Positions 8,531 to 27,908 of a stretch of DNA of 28,225 bases are shown in pieces. The notes below the pieces were generated by a model that had not been told where the DNA came from, ran no database searches, and worked only from the letters and a program-made list of their open reading frames with translations. A program made the translations under genes and the position numbers. Each line of letters begins with the position of its first letter. The first letter of the stretch is position 1. This DNA comes from a virus: positions 1 to 28,225 of the IMG/VR virus record IMGVR_UViG_3300021197_000111; one strand, 5' to 3'.

Positions 8531-10412
8531 AGTAGGTATCAAAGAATACCTTGGTATAAAAATTAATTACAGTAATGAAAAACTATTAGATAAGTTTAGT
8601 CTTGATACACTTAAGGACAGATACTTATGGGAGAATGAAACACATGCACAAGAAGCCTTCGCAAGAGCATCAGTCTTCGCAGCTACATACAAAGGTAACA
8701 CAGACTTTGAATTGGCTCAAAGGCTTTATCACTACAGTTCCAATTGCTGGTTCATGTTTAGCACTCCTATACTTAGCAACGGGGGAACAAGTCGTGGGCT
8801 TCCTATTAGCTGTTTCCTTAATTATGTACCTGATAGCAGGAATGGTTTATCAGATCACTATGATGAAAATATATGGTTGGCATCTTCGGGTGGAGGTATT
8901 GGTGGATATTGGGGTGACGTTAGGAGTAACGGTATATCTACTACTCACGGGAGTCGTTCTACTGGTTCAATTCCTTTCATGCATGTAGTAGACTCTCAGA
9001 TGTTAGCCTTTAATCAAGGCACAACAAGACGTGGAAGCTATGCAGCTTACATGGATATATCTCACCCTGAGATTGAAGAGTTCATCAACATGCGTAAAGA
9101 ATCAGGTGGTGATATCAATCGTAAGAATCTTAATCTTCACAATGGTATCAACATTACCAATGAGTTCTTGAAAGCTGTTGAAGAAGATGCAGACTTTAGA
9201 TTGATTGATCCTAAGACTAATGAGCCTACTAAGATTGTAAATGCTAGAGACTTATGGTGGCAGATCATCAACGCAAGAGCAGAGACAGGTGAACCATACA
9301 TGATTAATATAGATACATGTAACGAAGCATTACCCAAACAACAAAAAGATTTAGGATTAGAAATTAAACAAAGCAATCTTTGTTCTGAAATTACTTTACC
9401 TACTAACGAAGAAAGAACAGCAGTGTGTTGTTTGTCTTCTGTAAACTTAGAATACTTTGACGACTGGTCAGAGAATCCAATGTTCATAGATGATTTAATA
9501 ACTATGCTTGACAACGTTCTTCAACATTATATAGATCATGCAGTAGACACAGATAGTCTAGGAGAATACAATGCAAATTTTAAAAGGTTTCAAAAACACA
9601 TTAAAGAAGGCAGGGAAGGCTTTACTAAATCTGCCTATTCGGCTTATAGAGAAAGGTCACTTGGTCTTGGTGCGATGGGATTTCATTCGTATCTCCAATC
9701 ACGCAACATTCCTTTTGAAGGTATCTTCGCTACGGGCTTTAACTATAAAGCGTTTAAATATATTAAAACACAGGCAACCCGAGCTTCTGAAAGACTTGCA
9801 GAGGATCGTGGAGAAGCTCCTGATGTCAGTGGTAGTGGCAGGAGGAATGCTAATTTACTCGCTGTTGCACCTAATGCTAGTTCTAGTATTATATGTGGTG
9901 GTACTTCTCCTTCGATTGAGCCATATCGTGCTAACGTTTATACGCACAAAACTTTATCAGGTTCGTTCCAAGTTAAAAACAAATACTTAGAAGAACTATT
10001 AAAAGACAAGGGCTTAAAGAAAGATGAGTTGACTGCAGTTTGGAAAGACATTGCAGGTAACGAAGGTTCAGTACAACACCTTGATATTCTTACAGACGAT
10101 GAAAAAGAATTATTTAAAACTGCTAATGAGATAGATCAGATATGGATTATTGAACATGCATCTAAACGTCAAGAGTTTATATGTCAAGCACAGTCAGTTA
10201 ATCTTTTCTTTACTATACCTACAGCTACCGAACCACAGGAAGTACACGATGAGTACATGCAGTACGTTAATGATGTTCATTGGTATGGAATGAATAAACT
10301 AAAGTCTTTGTATTACTTTAGAACTAATGCTGCTCGTAATGCAGAGAATGTAAACACTAAAGTACAACGTATAAAATTAGACGATGCTGAATGTATCGCA
10401 TGTGAGGGTTAA
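8520..10412 (+). CDS. nrdA: Class I ribonucleotide reductase, alpha (catalytic) subunit
   Basis: Encodes 630 residues. With NrdB it reduces ribonucleotides to deoxyribonucleotides for phage DNA synthesis. Catalytic residues: ISCFLN (C98, equals E. coli C225); SNLCSEI (N286, C288, E290, equal to N437, C439, E441); AVCCLSSVNL (C303/C304, equal to C462). The C-terminal tail DAECIACEG carries C625 and C628, the redox pair reloaded by thioredoxin or glutaredoxin. The N-terminus is about 130 residues shorter than E. coli NrdA before the first catalytic cysteine, so the ATP-cone activity domain is missing and dATP shut-off is not expected (inference). AAAGGAAA precedes the ATG. Confidence 0.97.
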   Translation: MEDKVGIKEYLGIKINYSNEKLLDKFSLDTLKDRYLWENETHAQEAFARASVFAATYKGNTDFELAQRLYHYSSNCWFMFSTPILSNGGTSRGLPISCFLNYVPDSRNGLSDHYDENIWLASSGGGIGGYWGDVRSNGISTTHGSRSTGSIPFMHVVDSQMLAFNQGTTRRGSYAAYMDISHPEIEEFINMRKESGGDINRKNLNLHNGINITNEFLKAVEEDADFRLIDPKTNEPTKIVNARDLWWQIINARAETGEPYMINIDTCNEALPKQQKDLGLEIKQSNLCSEITLPTNEERTAVCCLSSVNLEYFDDWSENPMFIDDLITMLDNVLQHYIDHAVDTDSLGEYNANFKRFQKHIKEGREGFTKSAYSAYRERSLGLGAMGFHSYLQSRNIPFEGIFATGFNYKAFKYIKTQATRASERLAEDRGEAPDVSGSGRRNANLLAVAPNASSSIICGGTSPSIEPYRANVYTHKTLSGSFQVKNKYLEELLKDKGLKKDELTAVWKDIAGNEGSVQHLDILTDDEKELFKTANEIDQIWIIEHASKRQEFICQAQSVNLFFTIPTATEPQEVHDEYMQYVNDVHWYGMNKLKSLYYFRTNAARNAENVNTKVQRIKLDDAECIACEG

Positions 10413-12298: not shown

Positions 12299-14548
12299 CT
12301 ATAATTTTGGTTGTAGTTCTTTCATTTCAATCAGTGTTTCTAAACTTTGACCTGCCATTTGATAAAAGCCTTCGATGTTATCTGACAACATATTGTTGGC
12401 ATAAATATCTGTTGACTCGTACCATGTATCTTGGTCGGGCAATGTAACTAACCTATAGTTATTAAAGTTAGGAACAAATCCCATGTAAGCTATGATAGTA
12501 TTTTCTGACCCATACTCACCCGTCTCTTCTTGTTTAGCTTCGACATCATCTTGAGCAGCTTGTAAGTTCTGGGCTATGACATTGGCTACAGTTTGTTCAG
12601 CTTCTGTGGCTGATGCATCTGTAGAAACTGACACATCTATTTGACTTTGTAAAGTTTCAGTAGGTGTTACAGCAGCTACGACACTCGTTGTCTCAACGGT
12701 TTGAGTTTCAACGTTTGTAGATGTTGTAGAATTTGTAGAGCTTGTAGAGCTAACAGAACTTGTAGAACTTGTAGAGCTAACAGAACTTGTAGAGCTTGTA
12801 GAATTACTAGTATTAAAGCTTGTACTCATAGCCAACACTTGATTGTTTTGTACTGTTGAGGATGCAAATTGTTCAGATATACTAGGTGAATTACTAATGC
12901 TTACACCACCACCCGAACTAGATGATGATACGCTAGAAGCTCCTGTCGTGCCCCCTGTAGCATGAATAGAAGTACCTGCTGTCGTACCACTTACACTAGC
13001 TTGAGCTGTGCTTAGAGTAGAGGAGACAACGTTCATTGCCATTTCTCTACTTATCGAACTTTTACCTTCTGTACTTTCAGCAATAAGTTTTTCTTCTTCT
13101 ATTGCTTCTTCTATAATTTTTTCTTCTTCGACAATCTCATCCACAAGCTCTTCTTCCTGCTCTTCTGCAGACGTAAGTTCTTCTTCCATTGCTGTCTCTT
13201 CCTCAAACCATTCCTCCAGTTCTTCAATTGTTTCAAATTCAATAAATGTTTCAGGTTCTAAATATTCTTCAACAAGTAAATTTTCTTGAAAGACAAACTC
13301 TTCAAAGATTACATCCTCCATTGGCATAAATATTTCTTCTTCATGCATAGGTAATTCAGGCAAAACTTCAAAAGGCTCTACAAATTCTTCACGTGGTTGA
13401 AACTGTTCAAAGATTATCTCTTCTTCAAATACAAACTCTGGCTCTTCAAAAGTTTCATACTCAAGTTCAAAGATATACTCTTCTAATATTTCTGGCTCTT
13501 CAAAAAGTTCTGGCTCTTCAAAAGTGTCATACATGTCATACTCTTCATACCCATAATCAAACACTTCTTCTTCTACAAAGTAAGCTACTGATTCTTCTTG
13601 TCTGTAACCTTGACAGAAAGGTCCATACTGTGGGTCTAAACTACACTGAAGGTCGTCATAAGCTTCCCAATAAAACGGACAAGACTCACTGTATAATTGT
13701 GTTATATCACATTGTTGAGATAAATAAGCTGCTGCGTAATAAGGACAAGACTCAGAATACAACTGGTCAATGTCGCATTGTTGAGTTTGATAAGCATCTG
13801 CATAACCTGTACAGCTTGTATCGTTTAAAGGATTACTACAGTCAATACTATTATTATCACTATATAAAGAACCACCATCTTTTAAGTTTTGATTTTTATC
13901 AGAGTTATTCCAGTCATAGTTATAACAAGATGAGGTATTAGTAGAGCCTGTATTACATTCATCGTGGTAGTAATAGGTGTATATCTCATCAGACTTACCT
14001 TGCTCACCAATTAAAACATCGTGCTGAATAATATCTAATTCACCATACCTATACTCAAAAGTATCGTTAGTCCATAGTATAACTTCAAAGCTGTTATCAG
14101 ATGCACGATTGTATTCACGCATATCATACCAACCAAAAACTGCTTTATCACTAAAGTTCTTGGCTAACATTTTAGAGTTGTTATCTCTAATGAGGTCAGT
14201 CCAGAATGGAAACAGGGTGTAGTTGTATTGTGGAAGTGGGTCAGGTGTATAATCTCCACAATAGTTATTATAGTTTACATTACCTGTACCTAATCCAAAA
14301 TGCAAACATCCATTCGTAGCCATACGAGCAGATGTAAAAGATTCTCCATAAAAATCAAAAGTAAAATCTAAATTAAATGCAGACGAAAGCTGGTCGTCTC
14401 CTGAGTTTAAATTGGTTGTGCCTGATTGATTGGTAAGGTCTATTAAAGACTGGTTGTCTTCGTAGATATATTGTGCACAAGCAGAGTTGGATAACCCTAA
14501 CAAGCCTATTAAAGCTAATCCAATTAAAACTCTAAAGTACTCACCCAT
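12299..14548 (-). CDS. Large secreted, multi-domain low-complexity protein
   Basis: Encodes 749 residues. Signal peptide: MGEYFRVLIGLALIGLLGLS, with a likely cleavage after ACA at about residue 25. Residues ~30-215 form a globular region resembling NIDO-type extracellular domains (FPFWTDL; NSFEVILWTND; FEYRYGELDI), a tentative match. Then four 22-residue cysteine repeats (~225-312), a glutamate- and aromatic-rich region (~316-488), a serine/threonine-rich region (~500-640) with SST triplets, and a C-terminal domain (ENTIIAYMGFVPNFNNYRLV; WYESTDIYANN; QSLETLIEMKELQPKL) that I recall as recurring in marine phage proteins. No clear ribosome-binding site precedes the ATG, 5 bases after the previous stop. 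Surface protein or virion appendage are both possible. Confidence 0.85.
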   Translation of the reverse strand: MGEYFRVLIGLALIGLLGLSNSACAQYIYEDNQSLIDLTNQSGTTNLNSGDDQLSSAFNLDFTFDFYGESFTSARMATNGCLHFGLGTGNVNYNNYCGDYTPDPLPQYNYTLFPFWTDLIRDNNSKMLAKNFSDKAVFGWYDMREYNRASDNSFEVILWTNDTFEYRYGELDIIQHDVLIGEQGKSDEIYTYYYHDECNTGSTNTSSCYNYDWNNSDKNQNLKDGGSLYSDNNSIDCSNPLNDTSCTGYADAYQTQQCDIDQLYSESCPYYAAAYLSQQCDITQLYSESCPFYWEAYDDLQCSLDPQYGPFCQGYRQEESVAYFVEEEVFDYGYEEYDMYDTFEEPELFEEPEILEEYIFELEYETFEEPEFVFEEEIIFEQFQPREEFVEPFEVLPELPMHEEEIFMPMEDVIFEEFVFQENLLVEEYLEPETFIEFETIEELEEWFEEETAMEEELTSAEEQEEELVDEIVEEEKIIEEAIEEEKLIAESTEGKSSISREMAMNVVSSTLSTAQASVSGTTAGTSIHATGGTTGASSVSSSSSGGGVSISNSPSISEQFASSTVQNNQVLAMSTSFNTSNSTSSTSSVSSTSSTSSVSSTSSTNSTTSTNVETQTVETTSVVAAVTPTETLQSQIDVSVSTDASATEAEQTVANVIAQNLQAAQDDVEAKQEETGEYGSENTIIAYMGFVPNFNNYRLVTLPDQDTWYESTDIYANNMLSDNIEGFYQMAGQSLETLIEMKELQPKL
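12726..12808 (-). repeat. Short-period repeat encoding Ser-Ser-Thr/Val triplets
   Basis: On the + strand the 9-bp unit CTTGTAGAG and variants (CTAACAGAA) recur in tandem, encoding SST/SSV triplets in the serine-rich part of the 749-residue protein. Near-identical units suggest slippage expansion. Confidence 0.65.
13611..13874 (-). repeat. Four tandem 66-bp units encoding 22-residue cysteine repeats
   Basis: The starts GGACAAGACTCA at 13677 and 13743 are exactly 66 bp apart. Protein units read C-x(8-9)-C-x2-Y-x2-AY-x3-QQ, for example CDIDQLYSESCPYYAAAYLS. The two middle units are most alike; the outer two (13611-13676 and 13809-13874) are diverged. Two cysteines per unit suggest disulfide-linked modules outside the cytoplasm. 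Confidence 0.7.
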
Positions 14549-14553
14549 GAGAC

Positions 14554-15744
14554 TTATTGAGTTCTATAAAATTCTTTTTTACACTGTCTCTTTGTTTTTG
14601 TTTTGGTTGTGTATAAAACTTTAACTGCACCAACTACATCTTTATTTATTTTATCTCTGTTAGGATTTTTATCGTGTGTACATTGTTGGATGTAAAGTTT
14701 TTCTTGGTCTTTAACATCGGGTCTCTTAGTCTTGTTTTCTGCCCAAGCCATTGATGCTTCTTTGCCTATTTTACCTTGGTAAGGGCAAGGAGTACCAGCC
14801 ATTTCCATAGCCTTAAATACTCTCGGGTCTTGACAAAGTATAGACACTGAAGCCACTTTCATACCGGTATCATACAGATACTTGGAAAGTTTTAAGCGTT
14901 CACAGTTCTCGTCAGTTACAGTAGCTCCTGTAGAGAACCCAAATACTTGCCCTTGAAAGGCACCAGAACGACCTACAGTACAGAGGTCTTGTGAGTAAGA
15001 CATAATACTAGGTGCAATCGCAGAAGCAGGAGGTGCTTTTGTTCTTACGTTCTGATTAATTGTTTGAGTAGAGTTAGATTCATTAATATTTCTGTTAGTG
15101 TTGTCAGATTTAGTATTGTTGTTATTAGTATTTGTGTTGTCCGTAGTCACATTAGAGTCTGACGTAGATTGATTAACGTTAGTATTGTTGTTAGTATTTG
15201 TATTGTTACTAGTAGAATTACTATTGTTATTTACGTTTTGGTTTACTGTTGAGTTTACAGTAGAGTTAGATGTAGACGTTGAAGTATTTACATTTGTGTT
15301 AGTATTATTATTTGTATTTGTATTGTTAGATGTAGAAGTATTAACGTTTGTATTATTCGAAGTATTATTATTGGTGTTAGTAGAAGTATTAACGTTTGTA
15401 TTATTACTAGTAGACGTATTAGTATTAGTATTTACATTGGTATTATTATTAGTATTGTTATTAGTATTTGTATTAGTATTTACACTTGTATTATTATTCG
15501 TGTTGGTATTAGTGTTGGTATTAGTGTTGGTATTTACATTAGTATTATTGTTCGTATTAGTGTTGGTGTTAGTATTGGTTGTCACCGTATTATTAATAGT
15601 TGTTAAACCATTGTCTTCACAGTACTGAGTACCTGAAGTACACGTGCCTGTTTGGTCTGCACTTGCAGCAAACGAAACTGTTAATAAACCTAATATAAAT
15701 AATGGTCCAAAAAAATCTTGATTTAACTTACGTCTTGTAAACAC
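14554..15744 (-). CDS. Secreted Asn/Thr-repeat protein with conserved C-terminal domain
   Basis: Encodes 396 residues from a GTG at 15742-15744; AGGAGG lies 6 bases upstream and the start shares a base with the upstream TAG stop. A signal peptide (FFGPLFILGLLTVSFAASA) should be cleaved after residue ~29. Residues ~46-232 are almost only Asn and Thr with some Ser and Val. The C-terminal ~150 residues look folded: APSIMSYSQDLCTVGRSGAF, VTDENCERLKLSKYLYDTGM, SILCQDPRVFKAMEMAGTPC, with cysteines likely paired. I recall this last domain from other marine phage proteins near lysis genes; function unknown. Probably periplasmic or surface-exposed, with the repeat as spacer. Confidence 0.85.
   Translation of the reverse strand: MFTRRKLNQDFFGPLFILGLLTVSFAASADQTGTCTSGTQYCEDNGLTTINNTVTTNTNTNTNTNNNTNVNTNTNTNTNTNTNNNTSVNTNTNTNNNTNNNTNVNTNTNTSTSNNTNVNTSTNTNNNTSNNTNVNTSTSNNTNTNNNTNTNVNTSTSTSNSTVNSTVNQNVNNNSNSTSNNTNTNNNTNVNQSTSDSNVTTDNTNTNNNNTKSDNTNRNINESNSTQTINQNVRTKAPPASAIAPSIMSYSQDLCTVGRSGAFQGQVFGFSTGATVTDENCERLKLSKYLYDTGMKVASVSILCQDPRVFKAMEMAGTPCPYQGKIGKEASMAWAENKTKRPDVKDQEKLYIQQCTHDKNPNRDKINKDVVGAVKVLYTTKTKTKRQCKKEFYRTQ
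15045..15605 (-). repeat. Long Asn/Thr-coding simple repeat
   Basis: On the + strand GTATTAGTA-, GTTAGTATT- and ATTTGTATT-like units recur with 6-bp and longer (18-36 bp) periods, encoding NTNT, NTNNNT and VNTNT blocks. The units are imperfect, so the tract is a mix of older and newer expansions. It fills about half of the host gene. Confidence 0.8.
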
Positions 15745-16584: not shown

Positions 16585-16818
16585 TTAATCTAGTGTTAAA
16601 GTTGATTCAAGTAATTCGTTTACAGAGTCTATTAAATACTCAGGTATGTCTGTTCCTAATATATCATCTTCGCTGTAAGCAATCATATAAGATTCTAAAA
16701 GGTTTTCGTATAGAGGTCTAAAGTCCTCACGTTGAACCCAAGCTTCGTTACATTTTGTACGAGCTTTACAGTCTATTCGATACGCAACATCTAATTGCTT
16801 TTCTGTATAAAGTAACAT
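16585..16818 (-). CDS. Small acidic hypothetical protein in the lysis region
   Basis: Encodes 77 residues, starting MLLYTEKQLDVAYRIDCKAR and ending in an acidic tail (NELLESTLTLD). No membrane segment or known motif. ATG shares a base with the lysozyme stop (TAATG), and its own stop is one base from the holin-like start. It lies between lysozyme and holin candidates, which suggests a role in lysis control or merely shared translation. Confidence 0.7.
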   Translation of the reverse strand: MLLYTEKQLDVAYRIDCKARTKCNEAWVQREDFRPLYENLLESYMIAYSEDDILGTDIPEYLIDSVNELLESTLTLD

Positions 16819-17267
16819 TATTGATCAATGACAACCTGCTGTAGCTCAATGCTACGTCTACCTACTTGAGTAAACCATCTACTGTTCTGCATTTCTGCAG
16901 CCATTCTATTCCAGTCATGTTCTCTACAAGCCTGTAGCATATTTCTAAACTTTGAAAGTCTTGTACCACCTAAGTTAAAACACATATTAACTAACACATG
17001 TTGTATCTTTTCAGGTAGCTTATAAAATTCTTCTTGATTACCAAACACATGTATAGCTTCTGCATAATGCTTATCAAAGTCTATCATATAATATCTATCT
17101 ACTACTGATTGAGGTACAGGTGTACCAACTTCCCAAGAATATTCAGGGTCGTTAGGTTGACATAAATGACCAACTCCTAGAGTTTTATAGCCTAAACTAT
17201 CCATATAAATTTCTAGGACTTCGCCTTCGTGTCGTTTAATCTCTGCTTTGCATTGTTCAATGTTCAT
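16818..17267 (-). CDS. T4-type lysozyme (GH24 endolysin)
   Basis: Encodes 149 residues. It should cleave the peptidoglycan glycan chain to lyse the host. Catalytic triad E14, D23, T29 (RHEGEVLEIYMDSLGYKTLG) has the same spacing as T4 E11-D20-T26, followed by VGHLCQP. Later segments LVNMCFNLGGTRLSKFRNM and NRMAAEMQNSRWFTQVGRRS also fit the family. No signal peptide or anchor is present, so it needs a holin; two candidates lie downstream. ATG overlaps the upstream LysM gene stop (ATGA). Confidence 0.95.
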   Translation of the reverse strand: MNIEQCKAEIKRHEGEVLEIYMDSLGYKTLGVGHLCQPNDPEYSWEVGTPVPQSVVDRYYMIDFDKHYAEAIHVFGNQEEFYKLPEKIQHVLVNMCFNLGGTRLSKFRNMLQACREHDWNRMAAEMQNSRWFTQVGRRSIELQQVVIDQ

Positions 17268-18277
17268 AATAGTTTTCCTAAATTAATTCTTACAAAACTT
17301 CCTTCACCTTCATCACTTCCAAATATACTTCCAGCTTCTCTAAATGAACCATATATGGGGTCACTTGCTACTCGAGCTGCTTTCATAGCGTAGTCTTTAA
17401 AAGAGTCAGGATTTTCTTCGTTAAAATTATATCTGTCTATAACAACAGTTTCACCTTGATCGTTGGTAGTAATAGAAGCTTGACCAAGTAAAGTTTTCAT
17501 AGAAAAAGCAGGGTCTTTAAATTTTTTAATAGCTTTTTGTATTCCAATAGCATCACCACCAACATCATCATATGGGTTTTCAGAAGTTTGAAAATCATCA
17601 TACTCCAGAACTTGTTTGCCTTTATCTAAATTACTTTTAACAATTTTTTTTAGTGCTTCAATTTCATCGGGGGTTGTATCAGCTTCTGTAAAATCTTCCA
17701 TACCCATATTATATTTTCTTCGCATACGAGAAAGAGGATTAATATCATTAAGCAATTGTCTTACATTAGAAGGTAAGAATCTATCTTTGGGTTTTGATGC
17801 TGGTAAATTTACTCGTTTTTGAAAATCTTGTTGAGCATAAATACCAAATTGTGGTATATTTATTTTTTGTCCTATCCGAATATTGTTTGGATTTTTTATA
17901 GCACGATTTGCCCTTACTAATTGATCTATATTTAAACTATTATTCTTAGCAATTGTAGCAAGATTATCTCCTTTTTTAATTTGATAAGAAACAAATTTAG
18001 GTCTTTTAACTGGTTTTTTTCTAAACATACTTAAAAAACCTTCTTGCTTTGAAGGCTCTTTTGCTACAGGTGCTTTACCTTTACTAGGTATAAATATAGT
18101 ATCTCCTGCATAAATCTCATCAGGATTTTTAATCTGTGAATTTACTTCTAATAACTCAGCGATACTTAATTCATTATCTCTAGCAATAGAAAATAAAGTA
18201 TCTCCTTTTTTTAAAAGTAACTTAAGTAAGCCACCCTTACGATACTGTAGCCTGTTCATATCATTTTTAATTGTCAT
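17264..18277 (-). CDS. Protein with two LysM domains (cell-wall binding)
   Basis: Encodes 337 residues. Two LysM repeats at about 22-65 (KKGDTLFSIARDNELSIAEL; IYAGDTIFIP) and 98-143 (KKGDNLATIAKNNSLNIDQL; IRIGQKINIP), which bind peptidoglycan sugars. The C-terminal ~190 residues (SMKTLLGQASITTNDQGETV; DPIYGSFREAGSIFG) are not a known hydrolase but look conserved-type in marine phage virion genes. No signal peptide. It is coupled by ATGA to both the big ejection-type gene upstream and the lysozyme downstream, so it may be a virion protein that contacts the wall during entry. It carries the YxKGG motif (YRKGGLL). Confidence 0.85.
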   Translation of the reverse strand: MTIKNDMNRLQYRKGGLLKLLLKKGDTLFSIARDNELSIAELLEVNSQIKNPDEIYAGDTIFIPSKGKAPVAKEPSKQEGFLSMFRKKPVKRPKFVSYQIKKGDNLATIAKNNSLNIDQLVRANRAIKNPNNIRIGQKINIPQFGIYAQQDFQKRVNLPASKPKDRFLPSNVRQLLNDINPLSRMRRKYNMGMEDFTEADTTPDEIEALKKIVKSNLDKGKQVLEYDDFQTSENPYDDVGGDAIGIQKAIKKFKDPAFSMKTLLGQASITTNDQGETVVIDRYNFNEENPDSFKDYAMKAARVASDPIYGSFREAGSIFGSDEGEGSFVRINLGKLL

Positions 18278-21200
18278 AGTCCTAGTCCTTCCATTTGAGC
18301 TTTTAATGCTCGGTCTTCTTCGTCTTGTACAAACTCTGCAGTGCTGTTAAAAGGTACACCTGTTACTCTGCTTTGCATTTCATCAGGCTCATCAGTTACG
18401 TTAGGTACGTTCTTAACTATACCACCTTTAGAGTATTTAAAAGGTTCAAACTTTGAGTCGTCTTTTCTATACGTTCCTCTAGCCATAGACCTTATTTTCT
18501 TTTTAGTGCCTTCACCAAATATATTATCATAAGCTCCATAGTAAGGTAAGTTAGTAACAAACATTTCTCCAAAACCTTTTCTATATAATACCATATCTAA
18601 TATGTCTTGAGGAAAAGGACCACCTATAGCTTTCATTACAGAAGTTCCCGGACCTACATTTCGATCACTTTCACTTCGATATCTATAAGCATAGTCTAAA
18701 GGACCTAAACCACCCCAACGTCTAACAGCATTTTCTATAATTTCAGAATCAGGTTTTAGTTTTCCCGTTTCGTAATCAAGATTAGCCTTACCATTACTTC
18801 TAATTTGATTACCTAAATGAGCAACACTAGTCATAAGTATTGCAGTCATAGCAATTTTAGGAGCTTGGTGAACAAAAGATTCATTACCTTTTAAACCATA
18901 CTTTTTATTTTTATCTCTAGCTACCGGTGAAAATTCATTTATAAATCTTTTTAATATAGTATTATTAAAAACTGTAGGATAACCAGCAAACTGAATTAAA
19001 AATTGGGCATCAGGTCTACCAAACCAATCAGGTCTATTAGCTTCTGCTGCTCTAGGGTTTAAAATAATTTCTTTAGTAAATCTATTTGCACCACCCAACA
19101 TACTTTCAGAATAAAAAGTTTCATTACCGTTACCGTTCATACCTTTAGCTAAACTATCATCATATAAACCATTTTGGTCTAATGATTTTTTATACCAAGT
19201 AACTGCTTCATTTTCATCAATACCTAACTGTCTTAGTTCTTTTATAATTTGTTTTCTTTTACCTGCTCTTAATTTACCATAAGAAGTTTGACCAGTAGCT
19301 AATTTTTCTGCATGTTGTTTTATAATTCTTTTACCAGTATTAAACGATGCTAATTGTACTGCTTTAGTCCAAGGAGCTAACAAGTTACTGTTAAAAAAAA
19401 CTTCTTGTGCTCTTTTTGCAAACGGATTACTTAATGATTCACCTGCTAAACCTTCAATTCTTTCTTGAACTGCTTGTTCAAAAGCTAAACCTGTTTGATG
19501 TATTTCATCCCATGCTTCATCTGTTAAATCTTTAAAACCTTTTGTAGTTTTACCAGTTGATCTTTGAATTGCTTTAAATAACCTATCAAGACTTGAACCT
19601 GTTTGTTTTACTATAGATTTTTGTATATCATTTACTACATTAAGACCATCCAAACCACCTGCTCTTGATAATAGAATTAAAGGCTCAGTAATACTTGATA
19701 AGGTAGCAAACGGAAGTAAAGATGCTTGTTGAGTAAAAATAATTGTATCTTTAATATTTCTTAAATATTTATTTTTATTCAATGCAAAATTACTAAATGT
19801 TTCGTAGCCAGTAGCTCTACTATAAATTTGTTGTAATCCTTTTTGAACTTTTTTAATTTCAGCTTCACTATACTTTCTTGACCCATCTTTGTTTTTTGCA
19901 GCAAACATTTTATTAATAATTGGACCTAGTTCTTTTTTATCAAATTCATAAAGACTTGCACCAAAATATTTTTTACGTGCTATAGATTGTGATAGATTTG
20001 TAAAATAATTATTTAAAATAGTTTCAACATCATCTTCTAAAAATTTAGAAATTTCCCAGTCTTCAATATCTACAAACTTTCTAGGTTGTAAATAACCATT
20101 TGCATTACTTTTTCCTTTTGCTCTTAATTCAAACGGAGTAAATCTTTCTGTAAGCATATCATCTATAATTTGAAAAGCTTTTAAATTCTTAGCTGTAATT
20201 AGTTGCTCGGCTGTAGCATCAGCAATGTTTCCACTCTCAACTCCTGCATCTTGTAAAAAATTTCTTCCAAAAATATCTTCATCTAAACCAAGCTGACCTT
20301 TTGGGCTTCCCATAAATGTTTCCACACTTCCATCTGGATTTGTTACTTCAAAAGGTGTTAAGTCTTTTTTATTAACAGGGTCAGCATGTCCTTTAGCAAT
20401 TAATATATCTGCAAATTCTTCTTTGTTTTGATCTAGTTGATCATACTTATATAATCTAGGAAAGAAACCAGCTTTTCTAATTGTACCGGTTTTAAATAAA
20501 CCAACATTATTTGCATCGACATAGCCTTCATCTAACAAAGTTCTTAATCCTTTGTAAGCTTCAACTATATCAGGACTAACATCAATACTTAAATTTTCTG
20601 TAATATTTTTATCACCAACTCTATTTATTCGTTTATATGCAAACTGACCATTTACAAGTTTATTTTCAATATTAGATACTGTAACAGTTTTATCACTTAA
20701 TAAAATATTTAAAGTGTCGTTTGCTTTTGATTCTAGTTTACCAAAAAAATGATCATAACCAAGAGGATTAAAAATTTTAGCTAGTGCTGGAATATATTTA
20801 CCATGAAGTCTTCCATAAAACTCACCGTAGGTTCTAACCGATTCAGTTCCATCTGCAAGTTTAGCTTTAGTAGCTCCTTCAGTTCCTTCTTTTAAAATAC
20901 CAGCATCCCAGTCATATCTTAACTTTCTTAAAAAGTTTCCAATTAAAGGTTCATCTTCTACAAACTGGACCATTTCAGATGTAGATTTTCCAAATAAAAA
21001 GTTTAAACCAGTTCGTACACCTGCTGTTCCTTTATCTATTCGTGCAATTGTTTCTTCTGTAATTTGACCTTTCGGACCTAAAGTTTCTTCAACATTTAAC
21101 TCTTGATCAATTTTCCAATCAGCTTCAACTTCTTCTCTAACTCTAGGACCAACAAAATCTATATCAGAATTGTTAGCATGTTTAAATTCTTTTTCAACAA

Positions 21201-22047
21201 ACTTTGCATACTTTGAACCTTGACGAGCAGCTAATCCAGAACCTAAACCACCACCTATAACACCACCAGCTAACCCACCTATTAATCCTGAAAATGCAGT
21301 TTGATTTAAATCTATTTGATCAATCATATCAGTATCTACTGCAATGTCTTGCATAAAATAATCATGAAGTCCTCCCCAAACAGCTCCTTCTGTAGAAGTA
21401 ACAGCAGCTAAAGGTGCAGAACTTTTAACAGATTGTTTAAGTAATTGTTTAGTTCCTTGTCTAGCAGCTTCACCTAAGGCAGCCCTACCTGCTAAAACAG
21501 TACCACCTGTAGGAATTGCAAATAACAAACTTAAAATATTAAGAGGGTCTGCAACTATATCAAAACCTAAATCTTTTATTAAACCAAAATGTTCTTTAAA
21601 ACCTTTTAAGTCTGCATTTTGAAATTGTTGTGTTAAGTAACGATAATCTTGATCTTGTTGCTCAGTCCATTTATTTGCTTGTCTAGCTCTTACAATAGCA
21701 GAACTTAAACTGTATTCAGAGTCTCTTAAGTATTCAAATATATTATCGTTTGAACCAATGCTTTCTAAAAATCTTTGAGATATTGCAGCAAACTCATCGT
21801 CATTTGCAAGTTGTGTTAAACTTGGTTTACCAAAACGAACAGAAGGAACACTAATACTTTTTTCTAGTTGATTATAAACTTGACCTACATTGGTTTCATA
21901 ACCTAAAGGTTCATCTTGTTTTGGGGTAGCTCCTCCATGTAGACGAGCATAAATAGCAGCCAACTCTTCATTTTCTGTAGAGTCTTCTTGGTTATCTATT
22001 TGTGGGTTTTGTATTTTATTATAAATACTACTGTAATCAAATGCCAT
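18274..22047 (-). CDS. Very large internal virion / DNA-ejection protein
   Basis: Encodes 1257 residues, comparable in size to T7 gp16 (1318 aa). Such proteins leave the capsid with the DNA and form the channel across the envelope. Visible: hydrophobic helix ~162-180 (DIVADPLNILSLLFAIPTGG), a glycine-zipper-like segment ~253-273 (GLIGGLAGGVIGGGLGSGLA), and a long helical, charged body. The C-terminus carries YSKGGIVKNVPNV and VTGVPFNSTAEF, a tail type I recall from marine podovirus virion proteins. No lytic transglycosylase motif was recognised, unlike T7 gp16. Assignment rests on size, position and membrane-active segments. Confidence 0.75.
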   Translation of the reverse strand: MAFDYSSIYNKIQNPQIDNQEDSTENEELAAIYARLHGGATPKQDEPLGYETNVGQVYNQLEKSISVPSVRFGKPSLTQLANDDEFAAISQRFLESIGSNDNIFEYLRDSEYSLSSAIVRARQANKWTEQQDQDYRYLTQQFQNADLKGFKEHFGLIKDLGFDIVADPLNILSLLFAIPTGGTVLAGRAALGEAARQGTKQLLKQSVKSSAPLAAVTSTEGAVWGGLHDYFMQDIAVDTDMIDQIDLNQTAFSGLIGGLAGGVIGGGLGSGLAARQGSKYAKFVEKEFKHANNSDIDFVGPRVREEVEADWKIDQELNVEETLGPKGQITEETIARIDKGTAGVRTGLNFLFGKSTSEMVQFVEDEPLIGNFLRKLRYDWDAGILKEGTEGATKAKLADGTESVRTYGEFYGRLHGKYIPALAKIFNPLGYDHFFGKLESKANDTLNILLSDKTVTVSNIENKLVNGQFAYKRINRVGDKNITENLSIDVSPDIVEAYKGLRTLLDEGYVDANNVGLFKTGTIRKAGFFPRLYKYDQLDQNKEEFADILIAKGHADPVNKKDLTPFEVTNPDGSVETFMGSPKGQLGLDEDIFGRNFLQDAGVESGNIADATAEQLITAKNLKAFQIIDDMLTERFTPFELRAKGKSNANGYLQPRKFVDIEDWEISKFLEDDVETILNNYFTNLSQSIARKKYFGASLYEFDKKELGPIINKMFAAKNKDGSRKYSEAEIKKVQKGLQQIYSRATGYETFSNFALNKNKYLRNIKDTIIFTQQASLLPFATLSSITEPLILLSRAGGLDGLNVVNDIQKSIVKQTGSSLDRLFKAIQRSTGKTTKGFKDLTDEAWDEIHQTGLAFEQAVQERIEGLAGESLSNPFAKRAQEVFFNSNLLAPWTKAVQLASFNTGKRIIKQHAEKLATGQTSYGKLRAGKRKQIIKELRQLGIDENEAVTWYKKSLDQNGLYDDSLAKGMNGNGNETFYSESMLGGANRFTKEIILNPRAAEANRPDWFGRPDAQFLIQFAGYPTVFNNTILKRFINEFSPVARDKNKKYGLKGNESFVHQAPKIAMTAILMTSVAHLGNQIRSNGKANLDYETGKLKPDSEIIENAVRRWGGLGPLDYAYRYRSESDRNVGPGTSVMKAIGGPFPQDILDMVLYRKGFGEMFVTNLPYYGAYDNIFGEGTKKKIRSMARGTYRKDDSKFEPFKYSKGGIVKNVPNVTDEPDEMQSRVTGVPFNSTAEFVQDEEDRALKAQMEGLGL

Positions 22048-22048
22048 A

Positions 22049-23779
22049 TTAGAATAATAGTTTACTTGCGTAGTCTGGACTTAAAAAATTTACTTCTTTA
22101 GATGTTAAAATTTCACTTGCTTTTTCATCCATATATTCTTCATAAGTTAAATTATATGGGTTAGGTATATCACTAAATAATTTTTCTAACATCATTCTTT
22201 TTGCTCTAGGACTTACTTGTCCACTTGCTATTTCTCTAACTCTTAAATCAAACGAGTCTTGTCTGGTTTCAGTATTCATTAACTCCCAACTTTTATCAGT
22301 TACATAATTATTTGTTTGTGGGTTAAATTTAATTCCTTCACCTAATGCAGCAGAAACATCTCCTTTGTATCTATTATAATTATAGGTTTCATAAATTTTT
22401 TCATCAGTATCATAGTCATAATATTCATCTGTAGTAGTTAAAGTTCCTAATGGACTACCAGCTTGAAAACCTCTTTGTGCAGTAATAGCTGTTGCAATAT
22501 CAAATCTATATTGTTCACTTGAACTAATTTTACTTCTAAATTCTTTAATTTCTTTATCTGTATAACTAATGTTACTACGTTCTAAACCACTTCTGTATAC
22601 TCTTTCTGCAAAATCAACATCATTTTTAAATGCTAAAGACAGTCCAGCTATATCAGCTACCCATTCTTTTTTTTGTTGTTCATTGTCTCCTAATAAAATA
22701 TCATCAGCATAATTATTCCATTTTCTTCTATTACCAACAGTCATTTTATATTTATTATCTGAATCGTAAATTCTAGCTTTTCTAATATTTTTATCAAAAC
22801 TTGCTAAATTTTCTTCTGCTCTTTTTTGTAATTCTACATCTCCTTTAGCAAGGTCTGTTACAGATTCAAATGTATTTCTATACTTACCCATGCTTTTATC
22901 AACTGCTCCAATAATAAGACCTCCTAAGTCTAAGTTATTTAAAACATCATTTAAATTACCACCAGCTAAATTAGTTTCTTCAATATTTTTAAAAAGATTT
23001 AATCCACCTTGTTTTTCTTGTCTTAAACCAACTTGAGCTAGACCATCTTTAATAGTATTAAAAATTCCTCGATTTCTATATTGTAATTTTCTTTCAGCAA
23101 TAATTCTTTTTTCAGCTTGAGTTAAATCGTAAGCAGATATTCCTCTAGCTCGTTTAAATAAATCTAATCGATCCATGTCTCCTGCTTCTAAAACATTTCT
23201 TAGTTCATCTTCAAATCCTAAATAATTAGCTTTACCTGTATCTGGGTTTGTATCTAAATAGTCTGTTAAAAGTTCATGTAAAGCACTATCATAAGTTATA
23301 TCATATGTATCAGTATTAGCTTTAAAAGCATTAAATTTGTCTTCACCTATATCTTGTTTAATTAAACTATCAATAACAGGTTTAAATTTAACAGCAAGAC
23401 CATTTCCATCATATTCTTCTAAATACAATTTTACTTTTGAATTAATATCTAAGTCTTTGTTTTTTTTAGACCACTCAGCATCCGGCATATACTGCATAAT
23501 TCTTCCAAGCTGTGCAACTTCTTTAGCTTGACTGTCGTTATTAGATAACAAAAACATTTCGTGTTTGTCTAATTCTTTCATTCTTTTATTGTAAGAATTT
23601 TTAAATATCTTTTGACCAACACCAATCAAAGCTAATGTTTGTCCTATTCTTTTAGCCTTCTTAGCTTCTTTAGCTTGTTTTTTATTTATTGCAGCTTGTC
23701 TACTTAGTAAAGATGAACCAAGTTCTTCTACACTTTTGTTTTCAAAATCTTGAAATATGTTATTTAAGTCGTCTGCCAT
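22049..23779 (-). CDS. Virion structural protein, probable internal protein
   Basis: Encodes 576 residues. N-terminus acidic, then a very basic helix (KKQAKEAKKAKRIGQTLALI), then a long soluble charged helical body with no transmembrane segment. It directly precedes the 1257-residue gene (1 base gap) in what looks like the ejection-protein block, where T7 has gp14-gp15-gp16; it may equal gp15 (747 aa) by position. No sequence motif confirms this. Confidence 0.65.
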   Translation of the reverse strand: MADDLNNIFQDFENKSVEELGSSLLSRQAAINKKQAKEAKKAKRIGQTLALIGVGQKIFKNSYNKRMKELDKHEMFLLSNNDSQAKEVAQLGRIMQYMPDAEWSKKNKDLDINSKVKLYLEEYDGNGLAVKFKPVIDSLIKQDIGEDKFNAFKANTDTYDITYDSALHELLTDYLDTNPDTGKANYLGFEDELRNVLEAGDMDRLDLFKRARGISAYDLTQAEKRIIAERKLQYRNRGIFNTIKDGLAQVGLRQEKQGGLNLFKNIEETNLAGGNLNDVLNNLDLGGLIIGAVDKSMGKYRNTFESVTDLAKGDVELQKRAEENLASFDKNIRKARIYDSDNKYKMTVGNRRKWNNYADDILLGDNEQQKKEWVADIAGLSLAFKNDVDFAERVYRSGLERSNISYTDKEIKEFRSKISSSEQYRFDIATAITAQRGFQAGSPLGTLTTTDEYYDYDTDEKIYETYNYNRYKGDVSAALGEGIKFNPQTNNYVTDKSWELMNTETRQDSFDLRVREIASGQVSPRAKRMMLEKLFSDIPNPYNLTYEEYMDEKASEILTSKEVNFLSPDYASKLLF

Positions 23780-23782
23780 TTG

Positions 23783-24388
23783 TTACTCCGATGGTCCTAA
23801 TAAATTTTTCCTTGTGTCTGGTGCAGGTTTCTGTAATAAACTTGCTCGTATTTTAGCAGTATCTAGTTTTTCTAACCTGTCTTCAATATCTCTGCCAACA
23901 GCAGTTGGTTGAATAGTTTTAACTCTAACATCTCGAAACCCTTTTTTATTTTGCATGTCTTGGTTTCTTGAGTTGACAGCATCTTGTACAACGTCTTCAT
24001 CTTCATCTTCAAAGCCTTCACCATCACTATCTACAATAGGTTCTATACCTGACTTTTCTGCTATAGCCATAAGCATAAACATAGTAGGCTCTAATAAGTT
24101 TAACATCATATCAGGATTAAACTTACCTTTTCTAAATCCTTCTGTTAAAACTACTTCTGCTATTGTGTTTACAGAGATATCGTTTAACATTAAATCTTGA
24201 ACGCCTTTTAGTCTTTGAGGTTCTAGTAAGTCTAAAAATATTCTTTCTCTTGCTTCTTTAACAGATGTCATTTCGGGTGGTTGTTCCCAAGGATAAGCTT
24301 GATCAGGAGCATTGGTTAAAGATTGTCCTGCAATAGGTGCTTCAAACAATACGTCTTTTAAATTTTTTGGTGTTGGTCTTATTGCCAT
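23783..24388 (-). CDS. Hypothetical protein in the virion block
   Basis: Encodes 201 residues. Middle part has hydrophobic helices (MMLNLLEPTMFMLMAIAEKS) followed by a strongly acidic stretch (DSDGEGFEDEDEDVVQD); the ends are proline-rich and polar. It may be a virion or assembly protein given its place between two virion-type genes. No family recognised. Gaps to neighbours are 3 and 10 nt. Confidence 0.65.
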   Translation of the reverse strand: MAIRPTPKNLKDVLFEAPIAGQSLTNAPDQAYPWEQPPEMTSVKEARERIFLDLLEPQRLKGVQDLMLNDISVNTIAEVVLTEGFRKGKFNPDMMLNLLEPTMFMLMAIAEKSGIEPIVDSDGEGFEDEDEDVVQDAVNSRNQDMQNKKGFRDVRVKTIQPTAVGRDIEDRLEKLDTAKIRASLLQKPAPDTRKNLLGPSE

Positions 24389-24398
24389 AGTTATTCCT

Positions 24399-25397
24399 TT
24401 AAGCTCCTAAAATCCCACCATAAGCATTTGTTAGATTATATATATCTGTAGTGCTTGGGTTTGGATTATTAAAATCTATGTAATTGGTTGTAGGGTCTGG
24501 TCGTCTCATTAGTACAGAGTTTGCAGTATCTGCAAAATATTCAGCCTGTTGTTTTCTTAGTTGTTCTGCTGCAAACTTTTCTGCATCTTCACTAGCTTGA
24601 ATTGATGCTCCAGCAGCAGTCACAGGAGCAACTACTTTGTAAGCATTTTTTGCTCTTTGAAAATATTTACTACCGGGTTTTGGAGGTGTTATACCTTCAG
24701 AACTTTGTATTGTTGTTGAATATGATTCTGTAGCTGAATCACTAATATTTGCTCCTACAGTCTTACCTTTATAAAACTCATTTAAATCAGCCGGTTCATA
24801 AAACCCTGCTTTTAAATCAGTATCTATACCGTCTACAAATACAGCATCTTTTGACATACCTTTAGGTGGTTTAGGCATTTTAGGTCCACCAATACCTACT
24901 TGAGCTTCAGGGCTTATAGGTTCAATTGGCTCAACTTTAACCGGACCTCTAGGTCCTTGAACTAACCTAGCTTCTGTTGATCCTGTAATTGGTTCAATAC
25001 CTTCTGTGGAAGGTTCAATAAATCCACCTGTTGTTTCGCTTACCCAGTTTCTAAAGTTAGTACCTGTCATACCTTCACCACCAACAAAAGAACTTACTTT
25101 GTTCATGCTGTATTCGATAGCATCAGTTACTCTATTAAAAACTTTACCTACTCCATTCTTTACAAAATTACCAGCGTTGACTAAACCTTGAGCAATAGGA
25201 GCAAGAAAGCTACTACCTTGAGCTACGCTAGAAATCCACGTACCTATTCCCGGCAACATAAAAGATAAAGCAATAGAACCAATAGGACCTAATTTACCAA
25301 ATGCTTTAGCAATCTTACCTAAACCTTTTTTAAATTTCTTACCTACGCTTTTAATTCCTCTACCTATTTTCTTTCCAATCTTTCTTAATTTTCCCAT
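24399..25397 (-). CDS. Internal virion-like protein with cationic amphipathic N-terminus
   Basis: Encodes 332 residues. The first ~36 contain about 14 Lys/Arg alternating with hydrophobic residues (MGKLRKIGKKIGRGIKSVGK and on), followed by a hydrophobic segment (GPIGSIALSFMLPGIGTWIS). This looks like a membrane-active peptide fused to a soluble body with a proline- and glutamate-rich middle. In gene order it could match T7 gp14, the small ejection protein, but length and sequence differ. Similar N-termini are, from memory, recurrent in marine phages. Confidence 0.7.
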   Translation of the reverse strand: MGKLRKIGKKIGRGIKSVGKKFKKGLGKIAKAFGKLGPIGSIALSFMLPGIGTWISSVAQGSSFLAPIAQGLVNAGNFVKNGVGKVFNRVTDAIEYSMNKVSSFVGGEGMTGTNFRNWVSETTGGFIEPSTEGIEPITGSTEARLVQGPRGPVKVEPIEPISPEAQVGIGGPKMPKPPKGMSKDAVFVDGIDTDLKAGFYEPADLNEFYKGKTVGANISDSATESYSTTIQSSEGITPPKPGSKYFQRAKNAYKVVAPVTAAGASIQASEDAEKFAAEQLRKQQAEYFADTANSVLMRRPDPTTNYIDFNNPNPSTTDIYNLTNAYGGILGA

Positions 25398-25409
25398 AAT
25401 ATTTTCCTG

Positions 25410-27908
25410 TTAATCTAACCAGCCTTCTAGGATACTTGAGATAGCTTGTAAACTATCATCCCATACATCTTGTTTACCTACTCCAGCTTCGTTACCTAAT
25501 GCAGCAATAAGAAGTGAAGCTTTACGTTGCTGATCGTTATCCCATCTTTTAAATGCAAAGTCTGCTTCATCTCTTAGCTCTTGCCATAAAAAGTTATTAG
25601 CTGCTGATGTTAAGTTAAATGAATTCTGTGCGTTCTGTTGATTGATTGCATTAAAAGCAGCAGTGTCAGCAGTGTTAGCTTTACGTCTCCATTCAACATT
25701 AGACTGAGCAATTACAGTTGCATTTTGTACATTAAACTGTTCTCTTGCAAAGTCTTGTTGTGAATTAAACTTTGAAACATCTGTAGCCAACTGAGCTTCA
25801 ATTGTTTCTACTTGTAACTCATTAGCAACTCTTCTAGCTTCTGCAGCATTTTCTGCAGCAGCATTAAACTGTGCCATTGAATTTAATTGATTAGAATTAA
25901 ACTGTTCGTTTTGTTGTTGAACACTAGTCATAAATTGATTGACTTGGTTTTTACTAGTAGCATTAAATTGTTGTGCAGCATTTTCAGCAGCTTGATTACT
26001 TAATAATCTTTGTTGAGTTTGTTGAGCTTTTAACATACTTGATTGTTGCTCATTGCTTAAATTAGACATATCCATTTGCAAAAAAGCTTGAGCATTAGTA
26101 ATAGCATGTTTTGTATTTTGATCAGCTTCTGCTAAGTTTCTTTGCGACATTAACACAGCATCTTGCATAACTCCTTGTTGTTCCATTGTAGCATTCTGCA
26201 AACTAGCTGTTTGTAAAAACTTAGAGTTATTAATAGACCTTTGTTGATCAGCACTAAACTGAGCCATATCTAATTGAAATACATTCTGAGCATTAAACAA
26301 AGCTGTTTGTTGTGACATCTCTGCATCTTTTAAAGCTACAGTAGCTTCAATAGATTTTTGCTGTGTTATACTTTGTTGTATAGCTTGAGCATTAGATTGA
26401 GCTATTGGTAATGCTGATGTAATAATTGCATTAAGTAAAGAATCTCTACCTACAGTAGAAGCTTCCATACCACGTTGAGCTAACATAGCTTCAACACTAG
26501 CAACAGCAGGACTTGCCCATAAAGGTACTTTACCTTCTTCAATACCAGTTAATAAACTATCAATTTGATTAGATACTAAAGCTTCTTCAGGTAGTCCTTC
26601 AACCATTCCTCTTTGTTCTTCTGTAAAATCTGTAAGCCTAGCTTCAAGAGTTTCAGGATCATTTCCTAGTTCTGTAATATCTTCTTCACTTAACCCTGCA
26701 TTTCGTAATTGTTTTTTTGCACGAGTTACTTTAGCAAGAGATGTACCAGCTACTTTAGCAGCAGTGGCTTTAGCTGTAGAACTTAACGAACCTACAACTC
26801 TTTCTTGTAAAGCTCCGGGAATTACTTGAACTTCAGCAGAATCTATAATTGGAGTTGCTTGAACTCCAGCAGCTCTAGCTAATGTTTCAGAAACTTCAGG
26901 AGAAACAAAACCAACAGCAGCATCAACAACTGCATTTTCTGAAACTTTAGAAACATCGTCTGCACCAATCGTAGCAGCTTCAAAAGCTTTAGGTGTTGCA
27001 GCTTTAGAAACATCATCAATTGTACTGACTTGTTCAGGAGATATAGCACCTAGTGTAGCTGCTTTAGCTTCCTGAGTTGTTTGCATTTGTAACTCGGCTG
27101 CTTGTTCAGGAGTTATCTCTGTGTCTGCTCTATCAATTTTTTTAGGATCAGGAATTTTAGGAAGAGTTTCAGGTAACACACCTCGAGCCATATCTTGAGC
27201 ACCTTTACCTACTTCAATCATTCTAGCTCTACGTTCTTGATTAAACTCAGATTCTTGTTCAGTTTGTTGTAAATCTCTAATACGTTTAGCTTCTGCTGCA
27301 AGAGCTGCTAATCTAGCTTCTTCAGCTAACCTAGCTTCTTCATCTAATTTAGCTTGTTCTTCTGCAGCTAGTCTATCAGTTATTTGTTGTTGAGTTTCCC
27401 AAGTACCAAGGTCATTGTTCCAAACATCAGTTTCGCCTACACCTTCAGGTTTTACATAAGCTGTACCATTCCACACTAATCCAGTAGAATTATCAACAGT
27501 ACCTACTGCAATGTCACTGTCTGCTGCTGCAGGTGTTGGTGCAGGAGTCGGTGCAGGAGTCGGTGCAGGTGTTGGTGCAGGTGTTGGTGCAGGTGTTGGT
27601 GCCGGTGTAGGAGCTGGAGTTGGTGCCGGTGTAGGTGCTGGTGTTGGAGCTGGTGTTGGAGGAGTTGTAACTCCGGGGATAAAAGGTTTACCACCGCCAT
27701 CTACAAGGGGTACATCACCCATTCTTTGATTGCTTTTTGGAGAAGGAGGAGTAGTTTTACGTCCTTGATTATTTAAAAAACCTTCTATAACTTCACCAGT
27801 TTCTCTATCTACTACAACTCTACCACGCTGATATCCAACTCTACCACCATTAGTATAGTCTTCTCTAGCTATCCCACCGCTTCTTTTTCTATTTCTTCTT
27901 TTTGCCAT
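25410..27908 (-). CDS. Large repeat-bearing virion protein
   Basis: Encodes 832 residues. Layout: basic N-terminus ([12 protein letters not shown]) with [14 protein letters not shown]; a proline linker with eleven PTPA units (residues ~82-126); an alanine- and glutamate-rich helical part ([20 protein letters not shown]); a mixed middle; and a Q/N/A-rich helical C-terminal third with repeated modules such as [14 protein letters not shown] and [14 protein letters not shown]. No enzyme motif. Size, composition and place suggest an internal virion or fibre-like protein. A near-consensus promoter lies just upstream, and AGGATT precedes the ATG by 7-8 bases. Confidence 0.75.
27531..27662 (-). repeat. 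Eleven 12-bp tandem units encoding (PTPA)n
   Basis: On the + strand units are AGGTGTTGGTGC, AGGAGTCGGTGC and variants, in register from 27531 to 27662. Six units at the left end fall into just two sequence types; those to the right differ at third codon positions. All keep the Pro-Thr-Pro-Ala reading. Confidence 0.9.

Follow-up and report, generated by a model that had tools for sequence, protein, structure and literature searches.

A double-glycine motif probably marks chain ends and module junctions of late proteins in a clade of marine podophages

The window analysed here is the whole 28,225-base virus record IMGVR_UViG_3300021197_000111, in which 24 open reading frames (ORFs) were taken as genes; its plus strand carries the replication genes, its minus strand the late block (Table 1). 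Our subject is a short double-glycine motif, Y-x-[KN]-G-G-x-[VLI], found in three late proteins: a 337-residue protein with LysM domains, a 1257-residue protein resembling gp16-type ejection proteins and an 832-residue protein. A sequence-only reading had pointed out these three copies as a possible packing, scaffolding or cleavage signal of proteins that enter the capsid. A six-frame search recovered the three copies in the places it had given and no further match to the pattern, among five Y..GG places listed in the six frames. The sharing is not random, the chance expectation for the 24 ORFs being 0.03 and at least three motifs being reached in 0 of 3,000 shuffles.

Table 1. Late-block features of the window and the motif copies within them
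Feature	Position	Strand	Description
149-residue lysozyme gene	16818..17267	-	Adjoins the putative cargo; Pfam Phage_lysozyme 2.9e-7
337-residue LysM protein	17264..18277	-	Two LysM domains and a C-terminal domain; Pfam LysM 3.3e-25
Motif YRKGGLL	18244-18224	-	Residue 12 of the LysM protein; six-frame search
Extended motif RLQYRKGGLL	18224..18253	-	Residues 9-18 of the LysM protein
1257-residue protein resembling gp16-type ejection (internal core) proteins	18274..22047	-	PHROG matches, AlphaFold2 model, VIA-align
C-terminal anchor module (GGIVKNVPNVTDEPDE...QDEEDR...GLGL)	18277..18435	-	Protein end in the window; extra modules follow in part of the relatives
Motif YSKGGIV	18415..18435	-	Residues 1205-1211 of the 1257-residue protein; six-frame search
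576-residue late protein	22049..23779	-	ORFs at the corresponding place in L030 and L036 end NNGFV[SK]GGF.QT.KSLL (correspondence by gene order, not alignment)
332-residue late protein	24399..25397	-	ORFs at the corresponding place in L036, L063 and L064 end DYATGGTYG (correspondence by gene order)
832-residue late protein	25410..27908	-	N-terminus basic, then the motif, a stretch rich in Pro and Thr, and a conserved C-terminal part
Motif YTNGGRV	27857-27837	-	Residue 18 of the 832-residue protein; six-frame search
Extended motif of the 832-residue protein	27837..27866	-	Residues 15-24

The clade was surveyed with 13 related contigs plus the window (366 late-strand and 331 early-strand proteins), using composition-preserving shuffles within protein ends. 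On the late strand, the strict pattern occurs seven times in the first 50 residues and four times in the last 60 (shuffle means 0.12 and 0.08); chain middles hold none (shuffle mean 0.5), nor does the early strand. The enrichment at protein termini that had been suggested as a check was thus found, with 11 copies at late-strand chain ends against about 0.2 expected. These 11 include the window's three, and all lie in homologues of its three proteins, that is, in three families. A looser pattern, [YF]xxGG[ILVAMF], was enriched in late C-termini (10 against 3.0, shuffle maximum 8) and at chance in late N-termini (3 against 2.5) and middles (14 against 13.3), so that the enrichment at N-termini is due to the LysM protein and to the GGR form seen in the 832-residue family. 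The enrichment belongs to this clade and is not a general phage feature: the same patterns are near chance in T7, HTVC010P and HTVC019P as whole gene sets, and at or near chance in the stretches read of HMO-2011, CRP-2, HTVC033P and HTVC103P.

The 1257-residue protein matched phrog_7348 (2.3e-44), phrog_6958 (virion structural, 1.9e-14) and phrog_342 (internal virion protein with endolysin domain, 7e-6). An AlphaFold2 model was obtained for residues 58-1257 (43 sequences, mean predicted local distance difference test score (pLDDT) 60.7), with the motif in a stretch of pLDDT <50. The best Foldseek row for this model was the T7 core, weak on its own (E 0.011). In VIA-align, the top four rows were PhiM1 (8vb2, Z 8.4), T7 twice (9jyy and 7eyb, with Z 8.3 and 6.5 among them) and E1004 (9vvp, Z 7.2), the next row scoring 4.3; these alignments cover 248-308 residues at a root-mean-square deviation of 5.8-6.9 Å, and the aligner cautions that a Z near 8 can reflect a common arrangement in helical models. 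Profiles and model together suggest that the protein resembles gp16-type ejection proteins, and its gene has a comparable place in the late block, behind genes that are taken in relatives for capsid and tail genes. In contrast to T7 gp16, it has no lytic transglycosylase domain (no Pfam family at 1e-3), and in contrast to both gp16 and the PhiM1 protein its family has a conserved C-terminal anchor with the GG motif and, in part of the relatives, further C-terminal modules. The accessible part of PMC11440229 describes ejectosome proteins of PhiM1 that are ejected and form a channel across the periplasm. The earlier idea of a signal on proteins that enter the capsid is partly supported by this resemblance, gp16-type proteins being located inside the capsid, but it did not foresee that the motif often fronts modules within one long chain.

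This became visible in relatives of the 1257-residue protein, designated here by L and G numbers and taken from the best 80 of 190 related loci and, in another scan, from the best 80 of 227. After three of 84 matching ORFs had been dropped for an incomplete core, 81 remained, or 82 with the window, without dereplication. Their tails, the parts beyond the core, hold 100 copies of [YF]xxGG[ILVAMF], where shuffling gives 1.1, with at least one in 78/82 tails; the cores of the same proteins hold one copy against 19 expected. The first copy opens the anchor, a conserved C-terminal module beginning GGIVxNVPNVxxEPDE. When anchors were located by the part after the motif, without requiring GG, the GG was kept in 54/54 distinct anchors of relatives and [YF]xxGG in 51/54. 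Of 75 distinct tails, 49 end within 70 residues of the anchor GG, as the window's protein does; in the other 26, the chain continues.

Where it continues, later modules mostly begin with the motif as well, for example GLGLREPYVxGGIAKALTK..., YREPFVFGGLAMLGRK... and YREPYVVGGLVKLFHGSG..., and the longest array is that of L196, where the anchor is followed by six segments led by the motif. After two redundant sequences had been removed from 30 long tails, the part beyond the anchor in the remaining 28 contains 32 motifs against 1.34 by shuffling (maximum 7 in 1,000 shuffles), with at least one in 22 tails. Where tails share a block of homology, the block begins no more than 8 residues from [YFL]xxGG at 50 of 76 ends, against 12% at random, the pairs being non-independent. 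The earlier description, which placed the motif at chain ends beside basic residues, holds for the window; where relatives have additional C-terminal modules, many copies are internal and lie at module junctions. Against annotated phages, the window's 68-residue C-terminus gave one insignificant match and a 688-residue part of the L196 tail gave none.

Several of the modules led by the motif could be assigned. ART-PolyVal (PF18760, the ADP-ribosyltransferase of polyvalent proteins) directly follows it in L129 (5.4e-9) and L123 (9.2e-8), above the Pfam cut-off, and in L132 the same family scored just under the cut-off (5.4e-7). In the isolate HTVC104P, the carrier is followed by FNIGGV (GG at 1203), a methyltransferase-like domain (1243-1388, weak, 0.007), LSTGGR (GG at 1422) and a lysozyme (1503-1605, 8e-9), and this carrier aligns with the window's ejection-protein family (hhalign E 7.6e-8, 444 columns). 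HTVC103P is alike, with Phage_lysozyme at 8e-9 and a weak methyltransferase match between two motifs. Pfam gave nothing convincing on most other modules; readings from the letters, which are unconfirmed, would be ADP-ribosyltransferase (L126, L186, L044), transglycosylase (L147, L058) and toxin-like (L012/L013) modules. One module (B, with its own FVIGGL) is found together with an anchor-like segment also on the L131/L224 protein, which has an internal-virion-protein PHROG match near its start and aligns with the 1257-residue family by hhalign only over the last 48 columns (E 4e-4). The terminal module of L131/L224 recurs, by eye, in another order in L198, and modules therefore seem to be exchanged between carriers. 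We infer that they may be cargo, acting as effectors or breaching the cell wall, and that they may enter the host together with the ejection protein. The window's separate lysozyme gene is of the same enzyme class as the motif-led module of HTVC103P and HTVC104P. A swap of this gene for an array module was considered for L026, which lacks the gene, and rejected, the lysozyme match in its carrier tail being weak (0.11). A separate lysozyme gene of about 149 residues does not come next after the carrier in L026, L085 and L131/G023.

The LysM gene overlaps the end of the ejection-protein gene. The C-terminal half of its product matches the end of PHROG 7348, the middle of which matches the 1257-residue protein, and is 35% identical to a part of HTVC115P gp40 downstream of LNKGGA (tblastn, 5e-17), which matches the end of this PHROG too, so that this domain exists both within a large late protein and separately. 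The LysM protein might therefore be stand-alone cargo on its own gene; it carries the motif in 5/7 aligned relatives, the window included. Its model is shallow (7 sequences, mean pLDDT 68.5), and in the fold search all 14 matches at E 0.001 or better were LysM or LysM-type by title, none of them identifying the C-terminal domain. L072 (G011), where anchor and LysM motif are both lost and the 832-residue homologue keeps its motif, is an example of natural loss.

The 832-residue protein has relatives in 25 annotated phage records, including Puniceispirillum phage HMO-2011, Roseobacter CRP phages and the pelagiphages HTVC033P, HTVC103P, HTVC104P and HTVC115P. Among the 28 distinct N-termini examined, 25 have [YFM]xxGG, usually YTxGGRV or MSKGGRV after a basic start, with R at position -6 of the first copy in 22 of these 25, and some carry the motif in tandem, 8 residues apart (RPKYVTGGRVDMSKGGRV). 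The same arginine is present in 31/34 junction windows (19/22 after leaving out those like module B). The extended consensus R-x-x-[YFM]-x-x-G-G is thus common to the LysM protein, the N-termini of the 832-residue family and the junctions, and is absent from the 1257-residue copy. The motif as originally worded fits the three window copies but has to be revised, since LysM, 832-residue and junction copies share this longer form and the residue after GG is free.

In the 13 contigs, the 352 late proteins contain 35 copies of R..[YFM]..GG where 2.45 are expected (maximum 10 in 100 shuffles), and the 321 early proteins contain none (0.99 expected). Counted by family, it is present in 10 of 85 late families against 2.4 (maximum 7 in 200 shuffles), several of the ten being single small proteins. 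Outside the gp16-like, 832-residue and LysM families, 15 copies against 1.86 were found, ten of which belong to a family upstream of the capsid gene. In ten contigs, this upstream protein has a domain, GPGxGVSDSIPARLSDGEFV, which is followed by R-x-x-[LFM]-x-x-GG in 10/10 and matches tape-measure PHROGs in the two contigs scanned. The likeness to tail tape-measure proteins is confined to this domain, which belongs here to a separate small podophage protein and not to a tape measure. The segment GPGxGVSDSIPARLSDGEFVFTAKAV was noted in small proteins of G011 (6818-7534), L092, L095, L097, L100, L105, L108, L111, L115 and G019 (30689-31591), with GG motifs around it and, by reading, an EF-hand-like D-x-D-x-D-G stretch in some.

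As judged from these comparisons of sequence, the motif is enriched and conserved in a few late-strand families, most of several non-homologous modules on a gp16-like protein are preceded by it, and, as with the window's LysM protein, such a module can also be encoded by a separate gene that has a copy of the motif. We consider it very likely that the motif is a tag or junction marker in this clade. The tag would be carried by proteins that are loaded in the head and then ejected; its form would be R-x-x-[YFM]-x-x-G-G-(hydrophobic or R)-[VA], or [YF]-[SA]-[KR]-G-G-[IL]-V in the C-terminal variant of the ejection protein. As to its action, we tentatively favour docking: a shared partner in the procapsid or the ejectosome might bind the motif as a docking peptide, so that each cargo unit, fused or separate, would be held and loaded, and the tandem copies of the 832-residue family might raise avidity. 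Docking is favoured because it accounts for the non-fusion ends, for the tandem copies and for the tag kept on stand-alone cargo. The chances are about even for the reading as a whole, namely a docking tag that loads cargo for ejection in marine podophages of a clade to which HMO-2011 and HTVC103P/104P are related. A stronger version, which we hold to be unlikely, is a portable ejection tag, by which any protein with R-x-x-[YFM]-x-x-G-G would dock on a common head component and enter the host with the genome. The site might then be the tape-measure-like DSIPARLSDGEFV domain of the small protein encoded upstream of the capsid gene, a protein that has R-x-x-[LFM]-x-x-GG immediately behind this domain in ten contigs.

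Several observations weigh against the docking tag. R is at -6 in just 5/59 anchors, which have K or R directly before GG, and the anchor may be a second type of motif. In the second set of ten contigs, of which only two include a capsid gene, the extended motif outside the gp16-like and 832-residue families is at chance (2 against 1.04); because of this, and because ten of the 15 extra hits of the first set fall in the family upstream of the capsid gene, the wider claim rests mostly on one extra family. The link of its tape-measure-like protein to the motif is one of co-occurrence only. Among 13 isolates, only HTVC103P, HTVC104P and, loosely, HTVC115P showed appended modules led by the motif, most of the remaining isolates having been viewed by protein ends and motif hits only, and the HTVC115P body aligns only weakly with the window's family (hhalign E 7e-4, Prob 26). 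The motif is not strictly needed, since the LysM relatives in L003 and L072 do without it and the L072 ejection protein has no anchor. The LysM model places the motif in two paired short strands of middling confidence. No strict motif is found beyond the anchor in 6/28 long tails, some junctions are degenerate (KAIGGI in L003, RLAVGGL in L126, KKFPGG in L128), and the ART-like module of L198 follows GFAVGAL, without GG. Some copies of [YF]xxGG lie inside domains, such as that at residue 1573 of HTVC104P within the lysozyme match, and some junction DNA is common through recent duplication.

The other explanations differ in what they make of these placements. Double glycine is a common protease recognition element, and the motif might be a processing site at or near which a host or phage protease cuts, freeing the modules of a polyprotein-like ejection protein and trimming the ends of the 832-residue and LysM proteins. 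Its position between domains, as with the two GG that flank the methyltransferase-like domain of HTVC104P, and its low-confidence, probably flexible context in the 1257-residue model would suit a cut. Likely processing is moreover a theme of polyvalent proteins in the accessible text of PMC5512222. However, the stand-alone LysM protein mostly keeps the motif with nothing to release, about 50 residues after the anchor motif are strongly conserved in a family where most tails end within 70 residues of the anchor GG, and the tandem copies of the 832-residue family are only 8 residues apart. No Pfam peptidase was found in the ten late proteins of the relative G011 that the scan covered, so phage-encoded cleavage is not apparent. 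We thus rate processing as rather unlikely and prefer docking to it.

Less probable still is a recombination linker, a segment copied along with inserted cassettes and without function of its own. It would explain the copy of QMEGLGLREP ahead of the next module in L052, and junctions that share most codons, such as two L196 pairs in which 8/9 and 4/4 shared residues have identical codons. Other junction pairs use different codons for the same residues (0/4, 2/7 and 3/5 identical), and the constraint therefore seems to be on the protein, with some linker copying. Nor would a linker be expected to lie at the N-termini of the LysM and 832-residue proteins, which are not fusion junctions, or to keep the GG in every located anchor while the preceding residues vary. 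Slightly more doubtful again is that GG caps a short basic amphipathic helix, which would insert in or cross the host membrane and help to pull the modules through. Many junctions do continue in a hydrophobic and basic manner (GGIAKALTKTI, GGLVTRFLTRG, GGLLKLLLKKG, terminal GGFKQTLKSLLGR), but this is not general: the anchor continues NVPNV..EPDE, other junctions GGEVDTPENN or GGEVNEEED, and the 832-residue family GGRVGYQRG. Chance or composition, with glycine and basic residues accumulating in disordered ends, has a negligible probability in our view. The three window copies are indeed short and the 832-residue N-termini are rich in R (9%) and K (10%), but the shuffles of clade ends, extra modules and window proteins reject this source, and T7, HTVC010P and HTVC019P are near chance.

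Polyvalent proteins are among the closest known systems. As in the accessible part of PMC5512222, the relatives' arrays hold unlike domains in one late polypeptide (ART-PolyVal, lysozyme, a weak methyltransferase), and their genes stand among virion genes, judging by the gene order in the window, G011 and HTVC103P/104P. The window's 1257-residue protein differs in that it has no two unlike enzymatic domains and is not a polyvalent protein; among the relatives, HTVC104P gp54 has a lysozyme and a sub-threshold methyltransferase, and L123/L196 have ART-PolyVal and further modules without identification. Another difference is that here a gp16-like protein carries the modules, with a short repeated motif between most of them. 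According to the part of that article at hand, a zincin-like peptidase is present in about 36% of polyvalent proteins and is not universal; no zincin peptidase was found in the array proteins and modules scanned at the thresholds used. The terms 'linker', 'glycine' and 'GG motif' are not used in its main text (0 occurrences).

The capsid targeting sequence of T4 is likewise a short sequence common to otherwise unrelated head-internal proteins in the accessible portion of PMC9026906, where it is described as N-terminal (the first 10 residues of IPIII suffice) and processed. The motif differs in that it is N-terminal in the LysM and 832-residue proteins, internal and C-terminal elsewhere and repeated, with no known protease; by analogy, it may work like the T4 sequence, yet it is not that sequence. 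In phage P1, the available text of PMC12810830 reports that loss of DarA and Hdf excludes other injected Dar proteins, which is a precedent for the idea that cargo docks on a partner within the head. Literature searches on GG motif and ejection proteins, on gp16 and ejectosome effectors and on tape-measure strings found no work naming the motif, and the accessible portions of PMC9038755 and PMC10504331 have nothing on it. What appears to be new here is that modules mostly separated by a motif are placed on a gp16-like carrier, as a variant of the polyvalent or ejected-protein theme.

The choice and loading of head-internal effectors are understood for few phages, the T4 targeting peptide being the textbook case. 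The marine clade related to HMO-2011 and to pelagiphages appears to keep swappable, mostly same-tagged modules on a protein of the envelope-piercing type. If the motif is a loading signal, sequence would predict which unknown genes are injected and would find injected effectors in uncultured phages. If it is a cleavage site, ejected effectors would be released in a polyprotein style, and if it is a portable tag, abundant marine phages would hold a stock of exchangeable effectors on a carrier of the gp16 type. Either way, a region of hypothetical proteins becomes testable, and this can be done in culture since HTVC103P, HTVC104P and HTVC115P are isolates.

In the 53-kb relative G011, a small terminase (weak match), an SU10-type portal (4e-26) and a capsid protein (weak match) are followed by presumed tail genes, and further ORFs correspond in order to the window's 832-, 332-, 201-, 576-, 1257- and 337-residue proteins and lysozyme; we read this as a podophage layout with an internal-core block. 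Near the capsid gene, tiny basic proteins rich in Met, Gly and Lys have R-x-MYGxGG towards their C-terminus (G011 9595-9756, G010 24814-24966, G008 22853-23074). Near its presumed tail-fibre gene, G011 also encodes a 611-residue protein (17775-19610; L113 775-2610) that matches a GT25 glycosyltransferase (9e-21) and a PLOD-type glycosyltransferase (7e-48), and ORFs with a similar start are found at G003 52659 and G004 50553. Two other minus-strand ORFs of the window have a start resembling a secretion signal: one (12299-14548) has long Glu/Phe-rich repeats and no match, and the other (14554-15744) encodes an Asn/Thr-repeat protein (NTNTNNNT) with one PHROG match of unknown function.

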